Below, in pieces: positions 55 through 11,138 of a stretch of 64,000 bases of DNA (positions are counted from its first letter, which is position 1; every line of letters starts with the position of its first letter). Source of the DNA: Laspinema palackyanum D2c. GTDB taxonomy: Bacteria > Cyanobacteriota > Cyanobacteriia > Cyanobacteriales > Laspinemataceae. Position numbers and translations under genes: made by a program. Location of the stretch: positions 1 to 64,000 of the forward strand of contig NZ_JAMXFD010000016.1 of assembly GCF_025370875.1 (NCBI RefSeq), read 5' to 3'. A model generated the notes under the pieces. It searched no databases. It was not told the DNA's origin and was given only the letters and a program-made list of their open reading frames with translations.

Positions 55-2091
55 TCAAAAATGAGCGAACCGTAAGTTATAATCGTCACTCAACGGTAAG
101 ATAAACCCCTCGTTCAGGGCAGGCTTTAAGGTGAGAGCAGTTTCTCGGGCTGACGTTTCAGCAATGATCGCTAAAGTTGTCAAGTCAAATTGGTTGCCAA
201 TACAAGCCGCTAACTCTAAAATTGTTTGGGTTTCTGGGGGCAGCTTGTGCAGTTTGGCAGCCATCAAGTCTACTACATTATCGGCGATGGGTTGCCCTTG
301 AATCTGCTGGATATTCCATTGCCAGATTCTGCCGTTATAATCAAATCTCAGCCATCCTTCTCCATATAAAGTCTTTAAAAACTCGGTGAGGAAAAATGGG
401 TTGCCACCCGTTTTGCTTTCAACTAATTCAGCGAGGGGTTGCACTTGTTGCGGCCTTTGATACAGGGTATCGGCGAGTAATTGCGTCACATCAGAGAGTG
501 CTAAGGGTTTGAGGGAAATTTCCAGAACCCTTGCCTGAGTTTTTTTAATGGCTTCTACCGTCAGCATTAGGGGATGGGTAGCGCTGACTTCGTTATCCCG
601 ATATGCGCCGATTAAAAATAAGCATTGACTCTCTGGGGCCGTCATTATCAGTTCAATCAGTTGTAATGAGGCGCTATCCGCCCATTGCAAATCGTCTAAG
701 AAGATTGCAAGGGGATGCTCGGGTTGAGTAAAGACTTTGATAAAATTTTGAAAAGCCAGATTAAAGCGGTTTTGGGCTTCCACTGGGGACAGTTCGGGAA
801 TGGGGGATTGAGTGCCGAGAATGGTTGCGAGTTCGGGGATGACTTCAATAATCACAGGGGCGTTTACCCCCAAGGCTTTTTGGAGTTTTTCCCGCCATTG
901 GGCGATTTGGGAATCGGTTTCCGTCAGGAATTGTTTAATTAAAGAGCGAAAGGCTTGGATGAGGGAGGCATAGGGAATATTCCGGTGAAATTGATCGAAT
1001 TTTCCCGCAATAAAATAGCCTTTTCCCCGAGTAATTGGTTTATAAATCTCTTGGACTAAAGCGGTTTTTCCGATACCCGAATATCCTGAAACAAGGGTTA
1101 TTTTAGTTGAGTTAAATTCTGGATCGTCAGGAGGGGAGGTAACGCTTTTAAATGCTTCGATAAGGGTTGCCACTTCTTGTTCTCGTCCATAAAGTTTTTG
1201 AGGGATTTGGAGTCGCTCAGAAATATCCTGTATCCCGAGAGGAAACAACGCGATTTTTCCCTTTCTCTGCAATGAATCCCAGCATTGTTGCAGGTCAGCT
1301 TTTAATCCTGATGCAGATTTATAGCGGTCTTCAGCATTTTTAGCAACTAATTTGAGGATGATTTGCGAGAGTGCTTGGGGAATTTTGGAGTTGATTTGAT
1401 AGGGTGGAGTCGGAGGTTTAGCAAGATGGGAATGCACCAATTCTAAAGGGTCCTGGGCGAGAAAGGGAAGGCTGCCGGTCAGCAGTTCATAGAAGGTAAT
1501 ACCGAGGGAGTAAAAGTCGGTACGATAGTCTACACTCCGATTCATCCGTCCGGTTTGCTCCGGGGAAATATATGCAAGGGTTCCTTCTAATAAGTTGGGA
1601 TTACGAAAGGTAGAAATTTCTTGAGATAGGACCGTGGAAAGGCCAAAGTCAATGAGTTTAATTGTTTGGGTGGTGGGATTGAATAGGATGTTTGACGGAT
1701 TAATATCTTTATGGATAATATGGTTTTGATGTAGATAGCCTAATATTTCGACTATCTCAATGGCAAGGGGAAGAAAGTCAGTCGGGGACAAGGGGGCAAG
1801 GTTGAGTTGGTGGAGGTTCTGCCCACCGAAATCTTCTAAAGAGATACACCAGCGATTGTTCAGTGTTTCGATATGATAGGCATCAATGATGCCTGGATGA
1901 TGCAAGTTATGAGTGAGTTCGTATTCCCGTTTAAATTGGGCAATGCGTTCGGGGGATGGATAAGTATCTTGGAGGAGTTTGAGGATGACGCTTTGTCCGT
2001 CGGTTTGCCGGAGAACTCGGTAAATCAAGGAGTTCCCGCTTTCATAGAGGGTTTCAGTAATTTGATACGCTTCACTAAAAAAATTTTTCAT
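55..2091 (-). CDS. Serine/threonine protein kinase-AAA ATPase, C-terminally truncated
   Basis: The first ~270 residues are a Hanks-type kinase. The catalytic loop HKDINPSN, the DFG motif (LIDFGLS) and the APE-like segment AYISPEQTGRMN are visible, and a glycine-poor ATP loop precedes VILKLL. After a linker, the segment from about residue 300 is the AAA/MalT-type NTPase of large cyanobacterial multi-sensor kinases, with Walker A GYSGIGKTAL and Walker B LAIFLDDLQWAD. Such proteins normally run to 1700-2000 residues, with GAF and histidine kinase modules after a conserved RFAHDRVQQAAY-type segment. Here the frame ends with TGA immediately after RFAHF, and none of the three minus-strand frames in positions 1-54 restores that motif. 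The gene is therefore probably a truncated remnant, although the kinase and ATPase halves are intact. It lies downstream of the borosin operon on the same strand, separated by a strong hairpin. Confidence 0.85.
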   Translation of the reverse strand: MKNFFSEAYQITETLYESGNSLIYRVLRQTDGQSVILKLLQDTYPSPERIAQFKREYELTHNLHHPGIIDAYHIETLNNRWCISLEDFGGQNLHQLNLAPLSPTDFLPLAIEIVEILGYLHQNHIIHKDINPSNILFNPTTQTIKLIDFGLSTVLSQEISTFRNPNLLEGTLAYISPEQTGRMNRSVDYRTDFYSLGITFYELLTGSLPFLAQDPLELVHSHLAKPPTPPYQINSKIPQALSQIILKLVAKNAEDRYKSASGLKADLQQCWDSLQRKGKIALFPLGIQDISERLQIPQKLYGREQEVATLIEAFKSVTSPPDDPEFNSTKITLVSGYSGIGKTALVQEIYKPITRGKGYFIAGKFDQFHRNIPYASLIQAFRSLIKQFLTETDSQIAQWREKLQKALGVNAPVIIEVIPELATILGTQSPIPELSPVEAQNRFNLAFQNFIKVFTQPEHPLAIFLDDLQWADSASLQLIELIMTAPESQCLFLIGAYRDNEVSATHPLMLTVEAIKKTQARVLEISLKPLALSDVTQLLADTLYQRPQQVQPLAELVESKTGGNPFFLTEFLKTLYGEGWLRFDYNGRIWQWNIQQIQGQPIADNVVDLMAAKLHKLPPETQTILELAACIGNQFDLTTLAIIAETSARETALTLKPALNEGFILPLSDDYNLRFAHF

Positions 2092-2418: not shown

Positions 2419-2739
2419 TTATTCCTCGGAGGGTTGGGACTCGGGAGCATCGGTATAGGGTGGTGCATCGGAGGGTTGGGAGTCGGGAGCATCGGGATAG
2501 GGTGGTGCATCTGGATCTGGTAAGGGATCGGGTCCGGGATCGGTCACAATCACCGCTATCGGGGAACGGCCCCCAGCAAACAGGGCCTCAATTTGGGCCT
2601 GATCGCCACTAGAAAGGGCTGCTGTTTCCAGGTCGGATAAACCGGCTGCCTCTAGAATTCCTCGGGAATGTTTGGCAAATGCCACTTGAGTTTTAGGGTT
2701 GATCGCCAACTTAGTCAAGAATTCCACTGCATTACTCAT
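2419..2739 (-). CDS. Split-borosin RiPP precursor peptide (SonA-like leader)
   Basis: This 106-residue protein has three parts. Residues 1-56 are predicted helical: EFLTKLA at 6-12, a central helix, the turn AAGLSDLE at 31-38, then SSGD at 43-46. This is the LigA-like fold of borosin-binding domains and lines up without gaps with my recollection of the Shewanella precursor SonA. Residues about 58-72 (RSPIAVIVTDPGPDP) form a short hydrophobic beta-prone segment followed by Gly/Asp/Pro, exactly where SonA carries its N-methylated core. Residues 73-106 are Asp/Pro/Ser-rich and include two copies of a 14-residue unit (DAPPYxDAPxSQPS). AGAGGTAG lies 7 nt before the ATG. Its partner is the methyltransferase at 4569-5345. 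The alternative is a stand-alone LigA-fold protein, but that would not explain the core or the neighbour. Confidence 0.85.
   Translation of the reverse strand: MSNAVEFLTKLAINPKTQVAFAKHSRGILEAAGLSDLETAALSSGDQAQIEALFAGGRSPIAVIVTDPGPDPLPDPDAPPYPDAPDSQPSDAPPYTDAPESQPSEE
2428..2511. repeat. Two perfect-register 42-bp tandem repeats inside the precursor gene
   Basis: Units 2428-2469 and 2470-2511 differ at only two positions. They encode the duplicated 14-residue tail unit of the precursor peptide. The near-identity implies a recent in-frame duplication. Confidence 0.9.
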
Positions 2740-2781
2740 TGTTTCTACCTCTTGAGTTTATTTCTAATTCCAGGACTGTTC

Positions 2782-3423
2782 TTATTCTCTCTCAAATTCC
2801 AGTTCCTCTACTTGTACATTTGATCGTAACATGGTGGTCTCTAAGTGGGACACCTGAGTAGACTTCAGGGCCTCAATCGGGAGGGTTGGATCGAGTTCGA
2901 TCGCTCGCATTAAGCAGTCCCAAGCCTTTTTGTACTGATCCATCAAAGCGTAGATCACGCTGAGGTAGGCATGGGACCAAGCGTATTCAGGAATCAGATC
3001 AATGGACCGTTTAAAATGCTTTGCAGCCCTCTCATTGAGTCCTAAATAGCGAAGTACCCTGCCCCGATGAGCGATCGCCCAAGCGTAGTTGGGATTTAAT
3101 TTGATGGCTTTAGTAAACGCCTCAACTGCGTCTTTATAGCTACCCATATAAAAGTAAGTCTCACCCTGATGAGCCAATGCCCAAGAGTAGTTAGGATGGT
3201 GGTGAATTGCCTCCTCGAAATCATTGATCGCCTGAAGATAGTTGCCTATCTCATAGTAGCTTTTCCCTCAATGACCCAATGCCCAATAATTTTTGGGATC
3301 CTCATCGATCGCTTGCGTAAAGTAAATGATCGCTTCTCTAGGATGTCCCATTAAGCGACAAGTTTCCGCTTGATGGAGAAGTTGCGAGACTTTAGTAGGA
3401 TGACGTTTTATCGGATCGCTCAT
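2782..3423 (-). pseudogene. TPR protein with in-frame TGA, second TPR gene of borosin operon
   Basis: From ATG 3421-3423 the frame encodes MSDPIKRHPTKVSQLLHQAE and then TPR units. An in-frame TGA at 3268-3270 interrupts it after ...YWALGH. Reading continues in the same frame without any shift (GKSYYEIGNYLQAI...), giving at least three more TPRs and ending at 2782. The stop sits where TPR consensus and the sister gene have Arg (AHRG), so a single CGA-to-TGA transition explains it. A shorter product of 131 residues could restart at the internal ATG 3175-3177. The gene lies 42 bp upstream of the precursor on the same strand. Either it is a recent pseudogene, it is translated in two pieces, or the base call is wrong. 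Confidence 0.75.
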
Positions 3424-3653
3424 TGAACAGATACCTGCTTGGTTTGAGGATAGGTTAATTTCCGTCTTTATTCAAGTTAATTGAGGCCAATTAACTTGAA
3501 ATTTCTAAGAATTTGATTGAAGTTATAAACGGTTAAAATGATAGAATATTAGTCCTATTCATGCAACGGTGCGATGAAGCAGGCTTTAGCAATAATCCGC
3601 TCGGCAAAGCTTATCGAGATTCCCTCCTATTTTTATAACAGCTTTTAGACTTT

Positions 3654-4544
3654 TTAATGTTCTGGTTCCTCTGGGTTAGAAGGCGTCGATAAAGGTAGAA
3701 TTTCAACCGTTGTTGGACGGTTGGCAGTTTTTCCGATTAAGGCTTGAAAGCAAGAATTTTCCCCCAAGTCATGCCACACCGGGTCGTGATGCACTAGCTC
3801 GATCGCCTCCTCCTCAAGTGGAATAGCCTGTTCCAAATGGCTAAAGGCTAGGTCCTTCTCTCCTTCGAGGGCAGCCAAAGCTGCCAATCTATAGAGAACG
3901 ATACCACAGGCAGGGGAATTTACTCTATTTCTTAAAGCAATCTTCGCAGTTTCAATCTCGTTGCCTGCCTTGATGAGTCCTTTCCAAGCAGCCTTGGCTA
4001 CCGCTTGACAGTAGAGTGCTTGATAGTCATGAGGATCCTGTTCCAATGCTTCTTCACAACAGGCGATCGCCTCGGCATATTTTCCCTGATAATAAAACAT
4101 CAGTCCCCGCTTGCTGCGCCAAGTCGGATAGAGGCTGGGTTCGAGGGCGATCGCCCGGTCAAATTCCTGCAATCCTTCAGCATAGCGATAGGTGAGTTCA
4201 TAGATCAAGCAGCGATAGGCGATCGCCCAGGCATAGTTCGGTTCAAGGGCGATCGCTTGATTGAAATCCCCTAAAGCCTCGTCATAGCGATATAATTTTC
4301 GATACACTGCCCCGCGATGAGCATAATTCCAAGCCGTCGGATTGAGTTCCACCGCCCGATTGAAATCTACCAGGGCTTCGGAATATCGTTTCATCAAACA
4401 ATAAGTTTCCCCTCGGTGGGCGATCGCCCAAGCATACTCAGAATTCAGGGCGATCGCCTTGGTAAAATAGGCGATCGCTTCATCATATTGTCCCTGTTGC
4501 CGAGCAGTTTCCCCTTGCTGTGCTAGTCGTCGGTCATTTGTCAT
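3654..4544 (-). CDS. Tetratricopeptide-repeat protein, borosin operon
   Basis: This 296-residue protein has five or six TPR units from about residue 8 to 195, each with the pattern A..Y..A.....AI.LNP.YAWAIAHRG. Typical TPR positions (W/L4, G8, Y11, A20, F24, A27, P32) are conserved. The last 25 residues before the Ser/Pro/Glu-rich tail carry the DPVWHDLGENSCFQALIG motif common at the C terminus of cyanobacterial TPR proteins. There is no signal peptide or membrane segment, so it is a cytoplasmic scaffold. Its start codon lies inside a heptamer repeat only 24 bp after the methyltransferase stop. The TPRs probably mediate protein-protein contacts in the RiPP pathway; what they bind is unknown. 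Confidence 0.85.
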   Translation of the reverse strand: MTNDRRLAQQGETARQQGQYDEAIAYFTKAIALNSEYAWAIAHRGETYCLMKRYSEALVDFNRAVELNPTAWNYAHRGAVYRKLYRYDEALGDFNQAIALEPNYAWAIAYRCLIYELTYRYAEGLQEFDRAIALEPSLYPTWRSKRGLMFYYQGKYAEAIACCEEALEQDPHDYQALYCQAVAKAAWKGLIKAGNEIETAKIALRNRVNSPACGIVLYRLAALAALEGEKDLAFSHLEQAIPLEEEAIELVHHDPVWHDLGENSCFQALIGKTANRPTTVEILPLSTPSNPEEPEH

Positions 4545-4582
4545 TTGTCATTGGTCCATTGTCCATTGTCATTTGTCCATTC
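4534..4582. repeat. Heptamer repeat (TCATTTG/TCCATTG, 7 units) across two gene ends
   Basis: Seven consecutive 7-bp units (4534-4540, 4541-4547 and so on to 4576-4582) vary between TCATTTG, TCATTGG, TCCATTG and TCCATTC. The tract contains the start codon of the TPR gene (4542-4544) and the stop codon of the methyltransferase (4569-4571). It resembles the short tandemly repeated repetitive sequences of filamentous cyanobacteria. Confidence 0.9.
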
Positions 4583-5345
4583 CTAAGCGTACCATCATCT
4601 CTTGATCCACAGGTGCAGGACCGAGGGGCGGTACATACAACGTAGAAACCGTTGTTACCTTGGCTGGCGGCAGAGAATGCAAGGGAATGCGATTGATTAC
4701 CGGCTGACACACTGGGTAATAAACCGCTGCCTCATAGATCACCACTTGATGATCCGCCGGATAATCCTGTTGTAACACTTCTGCTAATACCTTTAACCCC
4801 CGTTTCTCAGACCCCTCTTGATAAAATCCCCGATTGCCAATGAGCGCAACTTGCCATAAAATCAAGTGAGAATTGGGGTCGAATTTGCGCTGCCGGATTA
4901 AAAAGTCTGTAGCTTCAAAACTCTGGCAGCCACCTTTTCCCGGGTCGATGCCCAGATCGGCAAATAAACAATCCTCCGCAGAAATTCCGGGTAACATTTG
5001 AGCAGCGTAACCTTCGCGCCTTGCCTGGGCGATCGCCATGAGTGCCGGGTCCGCAAATACCCCCGGATGGCCGTAAAATACGGCACAGATGTTCCCCCCT
5101 GAGCGCACCGCCTCCATCATGCGATCGACCATTTCCCCGTAAGTTTGCCTGCGGCGATCGCAGTTGGTGTTATAGGGCAATGCTTCAGCCGTGGGATTCA
5201 GAGTTTCTAACCATTTCGCCGTCACGGGGTCGGCGACCGCAAACAACAGTTTATCCGCCTGTTTAATCCAGGCTTGAGCCGCTAATGTGAGATGCCCTCC
5301 CAGTTGAATCTCCGTTCCTACAATTATTAATGAACCCCGTTGCAA
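4569..5345 (-). CDS. Split borosin peptide alpha-N-methyltransferase (SonM/OphMA family)
   Basis: This 258-residue tetrapyrrole-methylase-fold enzyme would transfer methyl groups from SAM to backbone amides of the precursor core. The N-terminal strand is SLIIVGTEIQLGGH (5-18). RRRQTY (64-69) and FYGHPGVF (90-97) follow, then LPGISAEDCLFADLGIDPG (118-136) and QSFEATDFL (141-149). By alignment to OphMA from memory, the catalytic Arg72, Tyr76 and Tyr98 correspond to R65, Y69 and Y91, and Y58 lies near the position of Tyr66. Ordinary cobalamin or RsmI methylases lack the ADLGIDPG...SFEATD block. The protein ends at LGMDK with no fused core, so its substrate must be supplied in trans, as in split borosins. 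It is the first gene of its operon. Confidence 0.9.
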   Translation of the reverse strand: MQRGSLIIVGTEIQLGGHLTLAAQAWIKQADKLLFAVADPVTAKWLETLNPTAEALPYNTNCDRRRQTYGEMVDRMMEAVRSGGNICAVFYGHPGVFADPALMAIAQARREGYAAQMLPGISAEDCLFADLGIDPGKGGCQSFEATDFLIRQRKFDPNSHLILWQVALIGNRGFYQEGSEKRGLKVLAEVLQQDYPADHQVVIYEAAVYYPVCQPVINRIPLHSLPPAKVTTVSTLYVPPLGPAPVDQEMMVRLGMDK

Positions 5346-5406
5346 AGTATATCTCCTAAATTCTTATTTCATGAGTTACTCAAAAAGATAGCACATTTAG
5401 GGCTTT

Positions 5407-9326: not shown

Positions 9327-11138
9327 ATGTTGCTGTCCCTGCGGATAGAAAATTTTGCCTTAATTGACTGCTTAGATCTGGACTTTGGGAGGGGTCTCAA
9401 CGTCCTAACTGGGGAAACGGGGGCGGGAAAATCCATTATTCTGGATGCCCTGGATGCAGTGTTGGGGGGCAAATGTACGGGAAGGGCTATCCGCACGGGA
9501 ACCGGGCGATCGCTGATTGAGGCCACCTTTGAACTGGAACCCCCGGTGGCGGCTTATGTCCGAGACCAAGAAATTGAGCTATTAGACGGCACTCTCCTAG
9601 TCGTGAGTCGGGAACTCGTCTTCGGGAAAGGAGGAACTATGCGGAGCCGATCGCGGTTAAATGGGGTGTTAGTCAATCGGCAACTCATGGAACAACTGCG
9701 CGATCGCCTGGTGGAAATCACCGCCCAAGGTCAAACGGTCCAACTGGGACAACCCACCCGGCAGCGCGATTGGCTGGATGCTTTTGCCGGTCCCGAGGTT
9801 TTGGCCCTCCGCCAAGGGGTGGTGACTCGCTATGCCGAAGCGAATGCCGCCCGACAAGCGTTAGAACAGAGTCGGCAATCAGAACAACAGCGCTTACAAC
9901 GGATTGATTTACTGGATTACCAAGTCAAAGAGCTCTCGGAAGCAAATCTCAACGAAGCGGACGAATTAGAGCAACTGGAACAGGAACGGCAGCGCCTCTC
10001 CCATGTGGTGGAACTCCAGGAACAGAGCGATCGCGTCTATCAATCCCTTTATCAACAGAATGATGGGTCCTTGGCGGCGGCGGACCTGTTGGGAGAAGTG
10101 GAACAAACCCTGCGGGATATGGTTGCTTATGACCCGGAATTGCAAGGGGTCCTGGATGTGGTCAACGATGCCTTAGCCTTGGCGATCGAGGCGGGACGGC
10201 AGATGAGTAGCTACAGTTCCAGTTTAGAATCTGATCCCGACCGATTGGGGGAGGTGGAACAACGGATTGGCCAACTGAAGCAAATTTGCCGGAAGTACGG
10301 GCCCAACCTGAGTGCCGCGATCGCCTACTTCCATCGCATCGAAGCAGAACTAGAAGAACTCACCCAAGCCGATCGCGCAGTCGAGGTCCTAGAACGCCGC
10401 TATCAAGCCTGCCAAGCCGAACTGATTCAAACCTGTGAAGAATTAACCCATCTGCGGCGCACCGCTGCCTTGCGGCTAGAACAACGCCTGATTGAAGAAC
10501 TCAAACCCCTGGCGATGGATAATGTCCAGTTTCAGGTACAGATTGAACCCGTAGCGCCCAGCAGTACCGGCAGCGATCGCATCATTTTCCTGTTTAGTCC
10601 CAATCCTGGGGAACCCTTGCAACCCGTAGCCGAAATCGCCTCTGGGGGGGAAATGAGCCGGTTTTTGCTGGCCCTGCAATCCTGTTTCGTGCAGGTGGAT
10701 AGTGCCGCCACCCTTGTTTTTGATGAAATTGATGCCGGAGTCTCCGGACGAGTTGCCGGGGCGATCGCTCAAAAACTCCACCAACTCTCCCAGGGTCAAC
10801 AGGTGTTATTTGTCACCCATCAACCGATTGTGGCAGCAATGGCCGATTTTCATTTTCGGGTGAATAAACAAGTCATTGGCAGTTCCGAAGAAACCCCCCA
10901 GGCGACAGGTCCTCAACTCGAAACCGCCAACTCCCCCGGGAACGGGTCCACCCTGCCTGCGCCGATTGCACCAGAAGAACGCACCGTAGTTCGGGTAACA
11001 GCACTGGACAGTGAACAACGACGAGAAGAATTGGCGCAACTAGCTGGGGGACAAGGAGCATCCGAGGCGATCGCCTGGGCGCAATCTCTGCTCAACCAAG
11101 CCGCCTCCGTCCGACAAATTCAAACCCGCAGTTCTTAA
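9327..11138 (+). CDS. recN: DNA repair protein RecN
   Basis: This 603-residue SMC-like ATPase supports recombinational repair of double-strand breaks. The N-terminal half-domain starts MLLSLRIENFALIDCLDLDF, with Walker A GETGAGKSII. A long coiled coil (residues ~155-380) follows. The C-terminal half has the ABC signature ASGGEMSRF, Walker B TLVFDEIDAGVSG and the H-loop VTHQP. Residues ~515-555 are a Pro/Ser/Thr-rich insertion between FRVNKQ and RTVVRVTALD, which is longer than in Escherichia coli but plausible for cyanobacteria. AAGGA lies upstream of the ATG. It is monocistronic. Confidence 0.95.
   Translation: MLLSLRIENFALIDCLDLDFGRGLNVLTGETGAGKSIILDALDAVLGGKCTGRAIRTGTGRSLIEATFELEPPVAAYVRDQEIELLDGTLLVVSRELVFGKGGTMRSRSRLNGVLVNRQLMEQLRDRLVEITAQGQTVQLGQPTRQRDWLDAFAGPEVLALRQGVVTRYAEANAARQALEQSRQSEQQRLQRIDLLDYQVKELSEANLNEADELEQLEQERQRLSHVVELQEQSDRVYQSLYQQNDGSLAAADLLGEVEQTLRDMVAYDPELQGVLDVVNDALALAIEAGRQMSSYSSSLESDPDRLGEVEQRIGQLKQICRKYGPNLSAAIAYFHRIEAELEELTQADRAVEVLERRYQACQAELIQTCEELTHLRRTAALRLEQRLIEELKPLAMDNVQFQVQIEPVAPSSTGSDRIIFLFSPNPGEPLQPVAEIASGGEMSRFLLALQSCFVQVDSAATLVFDEIDAGVSGRVAGAIAQKLHQLSQGQQVLFVTHQPIVAAMADFHFRVNKQVIGSSEETPQATGPQLETANSPGNGSTLPAPIAPEERTVVRVTALDSEQRREELAQLAGGQGASEAIAWAQSLLNQAASVRQIQTRSS

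Follow-up and report, generated by a model that had tools for sequence, protein, structure and literature searches.

The first 64,000 nucleotides of contig NZ_JAMXFD010000016.1 of the cyanobacterium Laspinema palackyanum D2c (the window, G000:C16:1-64000 in our handles, in which G, C and L mark genomes, contigs and loci) begin at the contig start, in a genome of 7.03 Mb and 81 contigs, and carry on the minus strand a split borosin module, namely a free α-N-methyltransferase and the separately encoded precursor of a ribosomally synthesized and post-translationally modified peptide (RiPP), accompanied by tetratricopeptide repeat (TPR) genes and a giant kinase gene. We give an even chance to the module being coupled to its own sensor kinase, with the peptide as a signal read by that cognate kinase; the sensing half differs sharply between related strains, suggesting that the peptide may be a cell signal. 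As of 2021, no split borosin pathway had been linked to a final natural product (PMC8429565). The genes are transcribed in the order of a 258-aa open reading frame (ORF), a 296-aa TPR ORF, an interrupted TPR gene, a 106-aa ORF and the N-terminal part of the kinase. The initial annotation, made from the letters of this DNA, had drawn a split borosin unit at 2419-5345; its ORF coordinates, shared direction and 1.8 kb spacing hold (1.83 kb from the enzyme stop to the precursor start), and the genes are there, but the unit continues beyond that interval with the kinase gene at 55-2091. The features are as follows.

5353-5357, minus strand: Shine-Dalgarno-like AGGAG ahead of the methyltransferase TTG start, read directly
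4569-5345, minus strand: split borosin α-N-methyltransferase, 258 aa, TTG start, no fused core, from PDB matches and R65/Y69/Y91
3654-4544, minus strand: TPR1 protein, 296 aa, module-specific, from profile scans and comparison with the own genome
2782-3423, minus strand: TPR2 gene with an in-frame TGA at 3268-3270, from ORF reading
2419-2739, minus strand: precursor peptide, 106 aa
2569-2739, minus strand: precursor residues 1-57, borosin-binding leader of five predicted helices
2542-2568, minus strand: precursor residues 58-66, predicted core (SPIAVIVT region), placed by analogy with the SonA core
2422-2541, minus strand: precursor residues 67-106, Asp/Pro-rich follower (DPGPDPLPDPD..., acidic C-terminus)
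55-2091, minus strand: N-terminal part of the giant Ser/Thr kinase and AAA_16 ATPase, whose frame breaks at the contig start

The methyltransferase and its separate precursor

All 25 distinct PDB matches of the 258-aa enzyme at E ≤ 0.01 were borosin methyltransferases, headed by SonM constructs (from 2e-63) and followed by dbOphM, OphA (5e-56) and MroMA-type enzymes down to ~1e-54. Pfam assigns the enzyme to TP_methylase, the superfamily of which borosin enzymes form one branch, and the NCBIfam models stayed far under cut-off. Its R65, Y69 and Y91, already named as hallmarks in the annotation, align with SonM R67, Y71 and Y93, the residues probed by mutation (PMC8429565), and are invariant in 20/20 aligned homologues; a further active-site residue of SonM is its Y58, and the window enzyme has a tyrosine at its own position 58, but the alignment opens a 4-residue gap directly before it. 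The enzyme ORF closes with a stop and the precursor is an ORF of its own, so the two are separately encoded, and the earlier reading as a borosin methyltransferase without a fused substrate is borne out. Judged from its homology, the 258-aa protein is a trans-acting backbone N-methyltransferase of the split, type IV-like borosin kind.

The 106-aa protein, described earlier as having a LigA-like borosin-binding leader, proved to be a precursor of the SonA type: a profile from 12 precursor homologues matched SonA chains alone (~1e-6 to 1e-5), with nothing else below E 0.3, and in the predicted structure the five leader helices superposed on SonA and also on the OphMA region of residues ~320-379. 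A tetrapyrrole-type methylase standing beside an unrelated LigA-like small protein is thereby largely refuted and highly improbable, given the PDB matches to SonM/OphA at 2e-63 to 1e-54, the retained active-site residues and the small-protein profile that finds only SonA. Behind the leader and the short core lies an acidic, proline-rich follower that ends the precursor and was absent from the earlier description; its P68, D71, P72, P74, D75, P76 and D77 are invariant in 12/12 homologues, giving a conserved DPxPDPD. The core (residues 58-66) is the most variable of the three parts, with a mean pairwise identity of 0.25 versus 0.44 in the leader and 0.81 in residues 67-78. With this architecture of leader, short core and conserved DP follower, the 106-aa protein is, judged from homology, the substrate of the 258-aa enzyme, and backbone N-methylation of the core is predicted, with a small N-methylated peptide as the product.

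The closest known system is the type IV split borosin SonM/SonA of Shewanella oneidensis MR-1, which likewise combines a free ~260-aa N-methyltransferase, homologous over nearly the whole length, with a separate small precursor whose borosin-binding leader has five helices and is directly followed by a hydrophobic core (PMC8429565). The first type IV pathways have ~75-residue precursors encoded beside the enzyme (PMC8429565), whereas in the cyanobacterial module TPR genes set the precursor 1.8 kb apart from the enzyme, the precursor ends in a conserved DP-rich follower, and a giant kinase comes next. Split borosin types V-X also have separate enzymes and precursors, and sequence behind the core is known from other systems, with about 160 such residues in type VIII (PMC11395268). 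The fused fungal borosins (OphMA, dbOphMA and MroMA) share the methyltransferase family and, in OphMA, the region overlaid by the leader, but in the cyanobacterial module the enzyme and the core are separate proteins.

TPR genes and a kinase clade in the module

The enzyme (E ≤ 1e-20) was detected in 9/388 genomes across the class, 13/119 relatives and 4/8 genomes of the genus, the own genome being counted each time; Phormidium pseudopriestleyi FRX01 and Oscillatoria sp. HE19RPO are named relatives. Precursor matches with E < 1e-20 came from 11/119 relatives, exactly those with a close enzyme (at least 65% identity). A divergent enzyme/precursor pair occurs in G464 (precursor 5e-8), no precursor match was obtained in the 119-relative search for G339, whose 739-aa ORF contains the enzyme as one domain, and some genomes lacking the enzyme gave weak leader-only matches.

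All 12 readable loci of the close clade, from 7 genera and 7 families, hold the methyltransferase, TPR1, usually TPR2, the precursor and the kinase on one strand; this count leaves out G365 (a 13th locus, which ends too early), G464 and the four L042-L045 genomes. The precursor is thus not adjacent to the enzyme in the close clade, one or two TPR genes intervening in 12/12 loci; adjacent precursors are found in L042, L043 and L045. Among coding-strand ORFs of at least 90 aa, nine of the 12 loci have only TPR genes between the methyltransferase and the precursor and none between the precursor and the kinase; L030 and L032 hold extra genes, and the gene content of L034 is blurred by a run of N. 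TPR2 is present in 10/12 loci, counting the interrupted window copy and one copy with a run of N; its ORF was found in 9/11 other loci (the L034 copy runs into the N stretch) and is absent from L030 and L032, G443 and G468 being without TPR2. TPR1 of L032 is shorter (223 aa).

Of the two TPR proteins noted earlier in the window, TPR1 is intact, but the second gene is split by the TGA at 3268-3270, which may be a genuine interruption or an erroneous base, into pieces of 51 aa and 131 aa. TPR1 of another family, searched against the window's own genome, matched window TPR1 at 2.8e-79 and the TPR2 pieces at 9e-26 and 6e-19, the next best match reaching only 2e-12. BLAST of the divergent loci L037, L039 and L042-L045 gave no match to window TPR1, and the TPR coupling therefore belongs to the close methyltransferase clade. 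A literature search joining borosin with tetratricopeptide turned up nothing, the cluster tables of Imani 2022 and Cho 2022, which may list these loci, lying outside that search.

The window contains the N-terminal 678 residues of the kinase, and the gene resumes in the terminal part of contig C5, with 81% identity to the G392 copy, so the window kinase is probably whole; in the G392 homologue the C-terminal half comprises GAF and SpoIIE. Nine module kinases read whole measure 1,763-2,251 aa. The five that were scanned all have Ser/Thr kinase, AAA_16 and GAF domains, and end in SpoIIE in three (L051, L050 and L047), HisKA/HATPase in one (L049) and AAA_35 in one (L052). The cyanobacterial cbSTKIII dual Ser/Thr-His kinases such as HstK likewise have an N-terminal Ser/Thr kinase and GAF, and their C-terminal histidine kinase is matched in 1/5 scanned module kinases (L049), whereas 3/5 end in SpoIIE instead; the passages on these dual kinases give no RiPP link (PMC2176072).

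When the window kinase was used as a query, the module kinase ranked first in 8/11 genomes with 6-31 matches each, second in G390 and lower by score in G443, where part of the query matched; it was not among the matches in G468. In a tree of 20 kinases, the 11 module kinases, two kinases beside thiazole/oxazole-type RiPP genes and one more formed one clade (100/100), with six others outside; the G468 kinase, whose frame stops close to a contig end, was filtered out of the tree, and the outgroup consists of only those six, namely the own-genome C20 pair, C4 and three high-scoring matches. Gene order and trees thus show that, within this methyltransferase clade, the unit regularly includes one or two TPR proteins together with a giant kinase-ATPase protein from a single clade.

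The same kinase clade also occurs next to other peptide genes. At the own-genome C12 locus (L075, G000:C12:62500-77500), genes for two small leader-like peptides, a YcaO cyclodehydratase and a P450 precede a clade kinase, and upstream there is a methyltransferase fragment of 59 residues. Of the peptides, one gave a weak NHLP match (E 0.009) and the other gave none. The G392 counterpart of this kinase has no YcaO-type neighbours and a 48-residue methyltransferase fragment (79% identical) directly upstream (L079, reverse-complement 10428-10571), so that L079, an orphan kinase locus, is probably a decayed module. On contig C318 of G390, a clade kinase follows two small ORFs (the scanned one without a Pfam match), a YcaO gene broken in two and an amidohydrolase, and no methyltransferase trace was found at that locus. 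The kinase clade can be used for finding RiPP clusters.

A rather unlikely alternative is that the split borosin genes make a bioactive metabolite with an antagonistic or protective function. The TPR proteins and the kinase would then act in regulation, maturation or self-protection, and a peptide/immunity arms race would account for the diversity of the block. Tailoring-type genes in some relatives speak for this view, namely P450 genes in L032 and L040, a SnoaL-like gene in L030 and, ahead of the methyltransferase pair of L035, genes for an S8 peptidase, a sigma-70-type factor and an FAD oxidoreductase, but the nine loci with nothing other than TPR genes inside the module do not fit such a cluster well; furthermore, a sensor/output kinase of 1,763-2,251 aa would be an odd immunity gene, and the PADLOC matches of the one module kinase scanned centre on the kinase domain.

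Divergence within the genus and a possible signalling role

Synonymous divergence (dS) was calculated by the Nei-Gojobori method (own script) for four same-genus genomes, and it revealed a divergence island. The two upstream genes had dS values of 0.13-0.32 and the methyltransferase 0.32-0.55, versus 1.29-1.78 between types for TPR1 (window-G392, 0.58), saturation for TPR2, 1.7 to saturation for the precursor and 1.24-1.60 for the kinase N-terminal part. G388 and G390 represent one type, with dS of 0.09-0.30 in the block (TPR1 0.30, precursor 0.13 and TPR2 0.18). The kinases are diverged up to about residue 1195, with blocks down to 29% identity to the window, after which the window comparisons rise to 89-99%; the output ends are 93-96% identical among the same-genus genomes. 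As a control, the paralogue kinase of C12 and its G392 counterpart are 89-97% identical in every region, and therefore the island is not a general property of these kinases, the control being two genomes. The TPR1 tree groups G388/G390 with another family (99/97) and the methyltransferase tree keeps the genus together (100/100), a conflict that points to exchange. In matrices of 11 genomes (G468 left out), precursor identities tracked kinase residues 700-1190 best of the four regions tested (r 0.89; partial rank correlation given the methyltransferase 0.40, with 19/2000 permutations as high), the corresponding partial correlations being 0.24 for TPR1 (112/2000), 0.17 for kinase residues 1-300 (231) and 0.05 for the output end (697).

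The module, a split borosin with a dedicated kinase, has the kind of mosaic that a signal and its receptor would be expected to leave, and the function of split borosins thereby becomes directly testable. By analogy with SonM/SonA, the enzyme dimer would bind the leader, as reported for SonM (PMC11285071), and thread the core through the active site, where methyl groups from S-adenosylmethionine would be added from N to C on one or more hydrophobic residues at ~60-66. The leader and follower would be cut off by a protease not recognised in the window module, and the N-methylated peptide would probably be membrane-permeant; an exporter is perhaps unneeded because N-methylation favours permeability (PMC8429565). 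Sensing of the peptide in the cytoplasm would fall to the variable N-terminal ~1,195 residues of the kinase, with the TPR proteins helping or gating and perhaps, as a guess, binding the acidic follower, and the conserved GAF-SpoIIE end (a histidine kinase or other output in some genera) would relay the signal, so that strains would hold different signal/sensor types of one locus. More tentatively, cyanobacteria may use ribosomal backbone-N-methylated (borosin) peptides as strain-type signals, with biosynthesis/sensor cassettes exchanged onto a common kinase output end; the pairing of the same kinase clade with thiazole/oxazole-type RiPP genes would then mean that different peptide chemistries plug into one signalling chassis. 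If true, this would provide a biological role for split borosins as well as a RiPP-based recognition system in cyanobacteria.

In layout, the module is like ComQXPA of Bacillus, in which pre-ComX and the ComP N-terminus vary and the ComP C-terminus is conserved (PMC5385187): both have a modifying enzyme, a variable precursor and a variable sensor half on a conserved kinase output half, with no descent claimed. The modification and the kinase type are different, however, and the modifying enzyme is conserved here and ComQ variable. In RRNPPA systems, a small peptide gene adjoins a TPR receptor. Such proteins (Rap, PlcR and AimR) are cytoplasmic peptide receptors in Firmicutes (PMC9765709). Unlike these systems, the module has a kinase attached and its TPR proteins contain no DNA-binding domain by Pfam; in the Pfam and NCBIfam listings TPR1 matched TPR-type models, none named Rap, Rgg or PlcR, no search dedicated to those families having been made.

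Several points weigh against a signalling role. N-methylation, the product and ligand binding are predictions in this module. The window TPR2 gene is broken and TPR2 is lacking in G443 and G468, so TPR2 may be dispensable, and no protease or exporter was recognised among the ORFs scanned between the methyltransferase and the kinase. The variable precursor and sensor half with a conserved output half were seen in four genomes, and the diversity test on them takes recombination and selection together; a toxin/immunity pair would fit co-diversification as well as a signal/receptor pair, and an arms race would also give such an island. The methyltransferase dS between G388 and G390 (0.55) exceeds that of their block, and therefore the methyltransferase also recombines or drifts. 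The correlation between the precursor and kinase residues 700-1190 is a weak hint from few related genomes, and TPR1 gave a partial correlation of 0.00 with the same kinase region (922/2000). Kinases of this kind are common, with 18 matches in the own genome, and in G000 and in G392 the module kinase and its paralogue share 94-95% identity at the output end against 38-68% over the rest of the protein, the output-end value being only 77% in G390; gene conversion may therefore maintain the conserved end.

These last two observations are also what favours a still less probable explanation, an ordinary split borosin with a kinase neighbour of little import, in which the divergence would be the outcome of recombination and gene conversion that involved paralogous kinases and other genes. 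The kinase nevertheless follows the precursor in 12/12 loci, although upstream flanks are common only to same-genus or sister strains, and 11 module kinases fall in one clade. Moreover, the divergence of the kinase sensor half is accompanied by that of TPR1 and the precursor, for neither of which the own genome contains another close relative, and the divergence of TPR1, TPR2 and the precursor would not be explained by gene conversion among kinases.

Variant and divergent loci

Cytochrome P450 genes follow the methyltransferase in L032 (4704-5759) and L040 (499-1704), and the SnoaL-like gene of L030 sits between the precursor and the kinase. L035 and L036 have a tandem methyltransferase pair with an upstream S8 peptidase, sigma-70-type factor and FAD oxidoreductase (by Pfam on L035, as homologues in L036). 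S8 peptidases lie near L035 and L037, with a homologue in L036. L038 (G464:C44) is a degenerate module with the methyltransferase in pieces and a TPR remnant, still followed by a kinase with 62% identity to that of the window.

In L037 (G464:C40, 790-6749), a precursor and a methyltransferase of the borosin type come directly after two PatG-like proteins (S8 peptidase, PatG_D and PatG_C), and the locus may be a cyanobactin/borosin hybrid. The 739-aa ORF of L039 (5648-7867) contains a methyltransferase domain of borosin-like type close to the N-terminus, whereas its long C-terminal part gave no Pfam match at E ≤ 0.001; this is possibly an unusual fused architecture. Leader-like proteins of 72-81 aa are encoded in L068, L070 and L073 of same-genus genomes, with no borosin enzyme within the stretch read. 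In the distant cyanobacterial group of L042-L045, the methyltransferase is accompanied by an opposite-strand protein of 682-705 aa, which Pfam identifies in L042 as a sensor histidine kinase; three of the four loci also have an adjacent 78-aa precursor.

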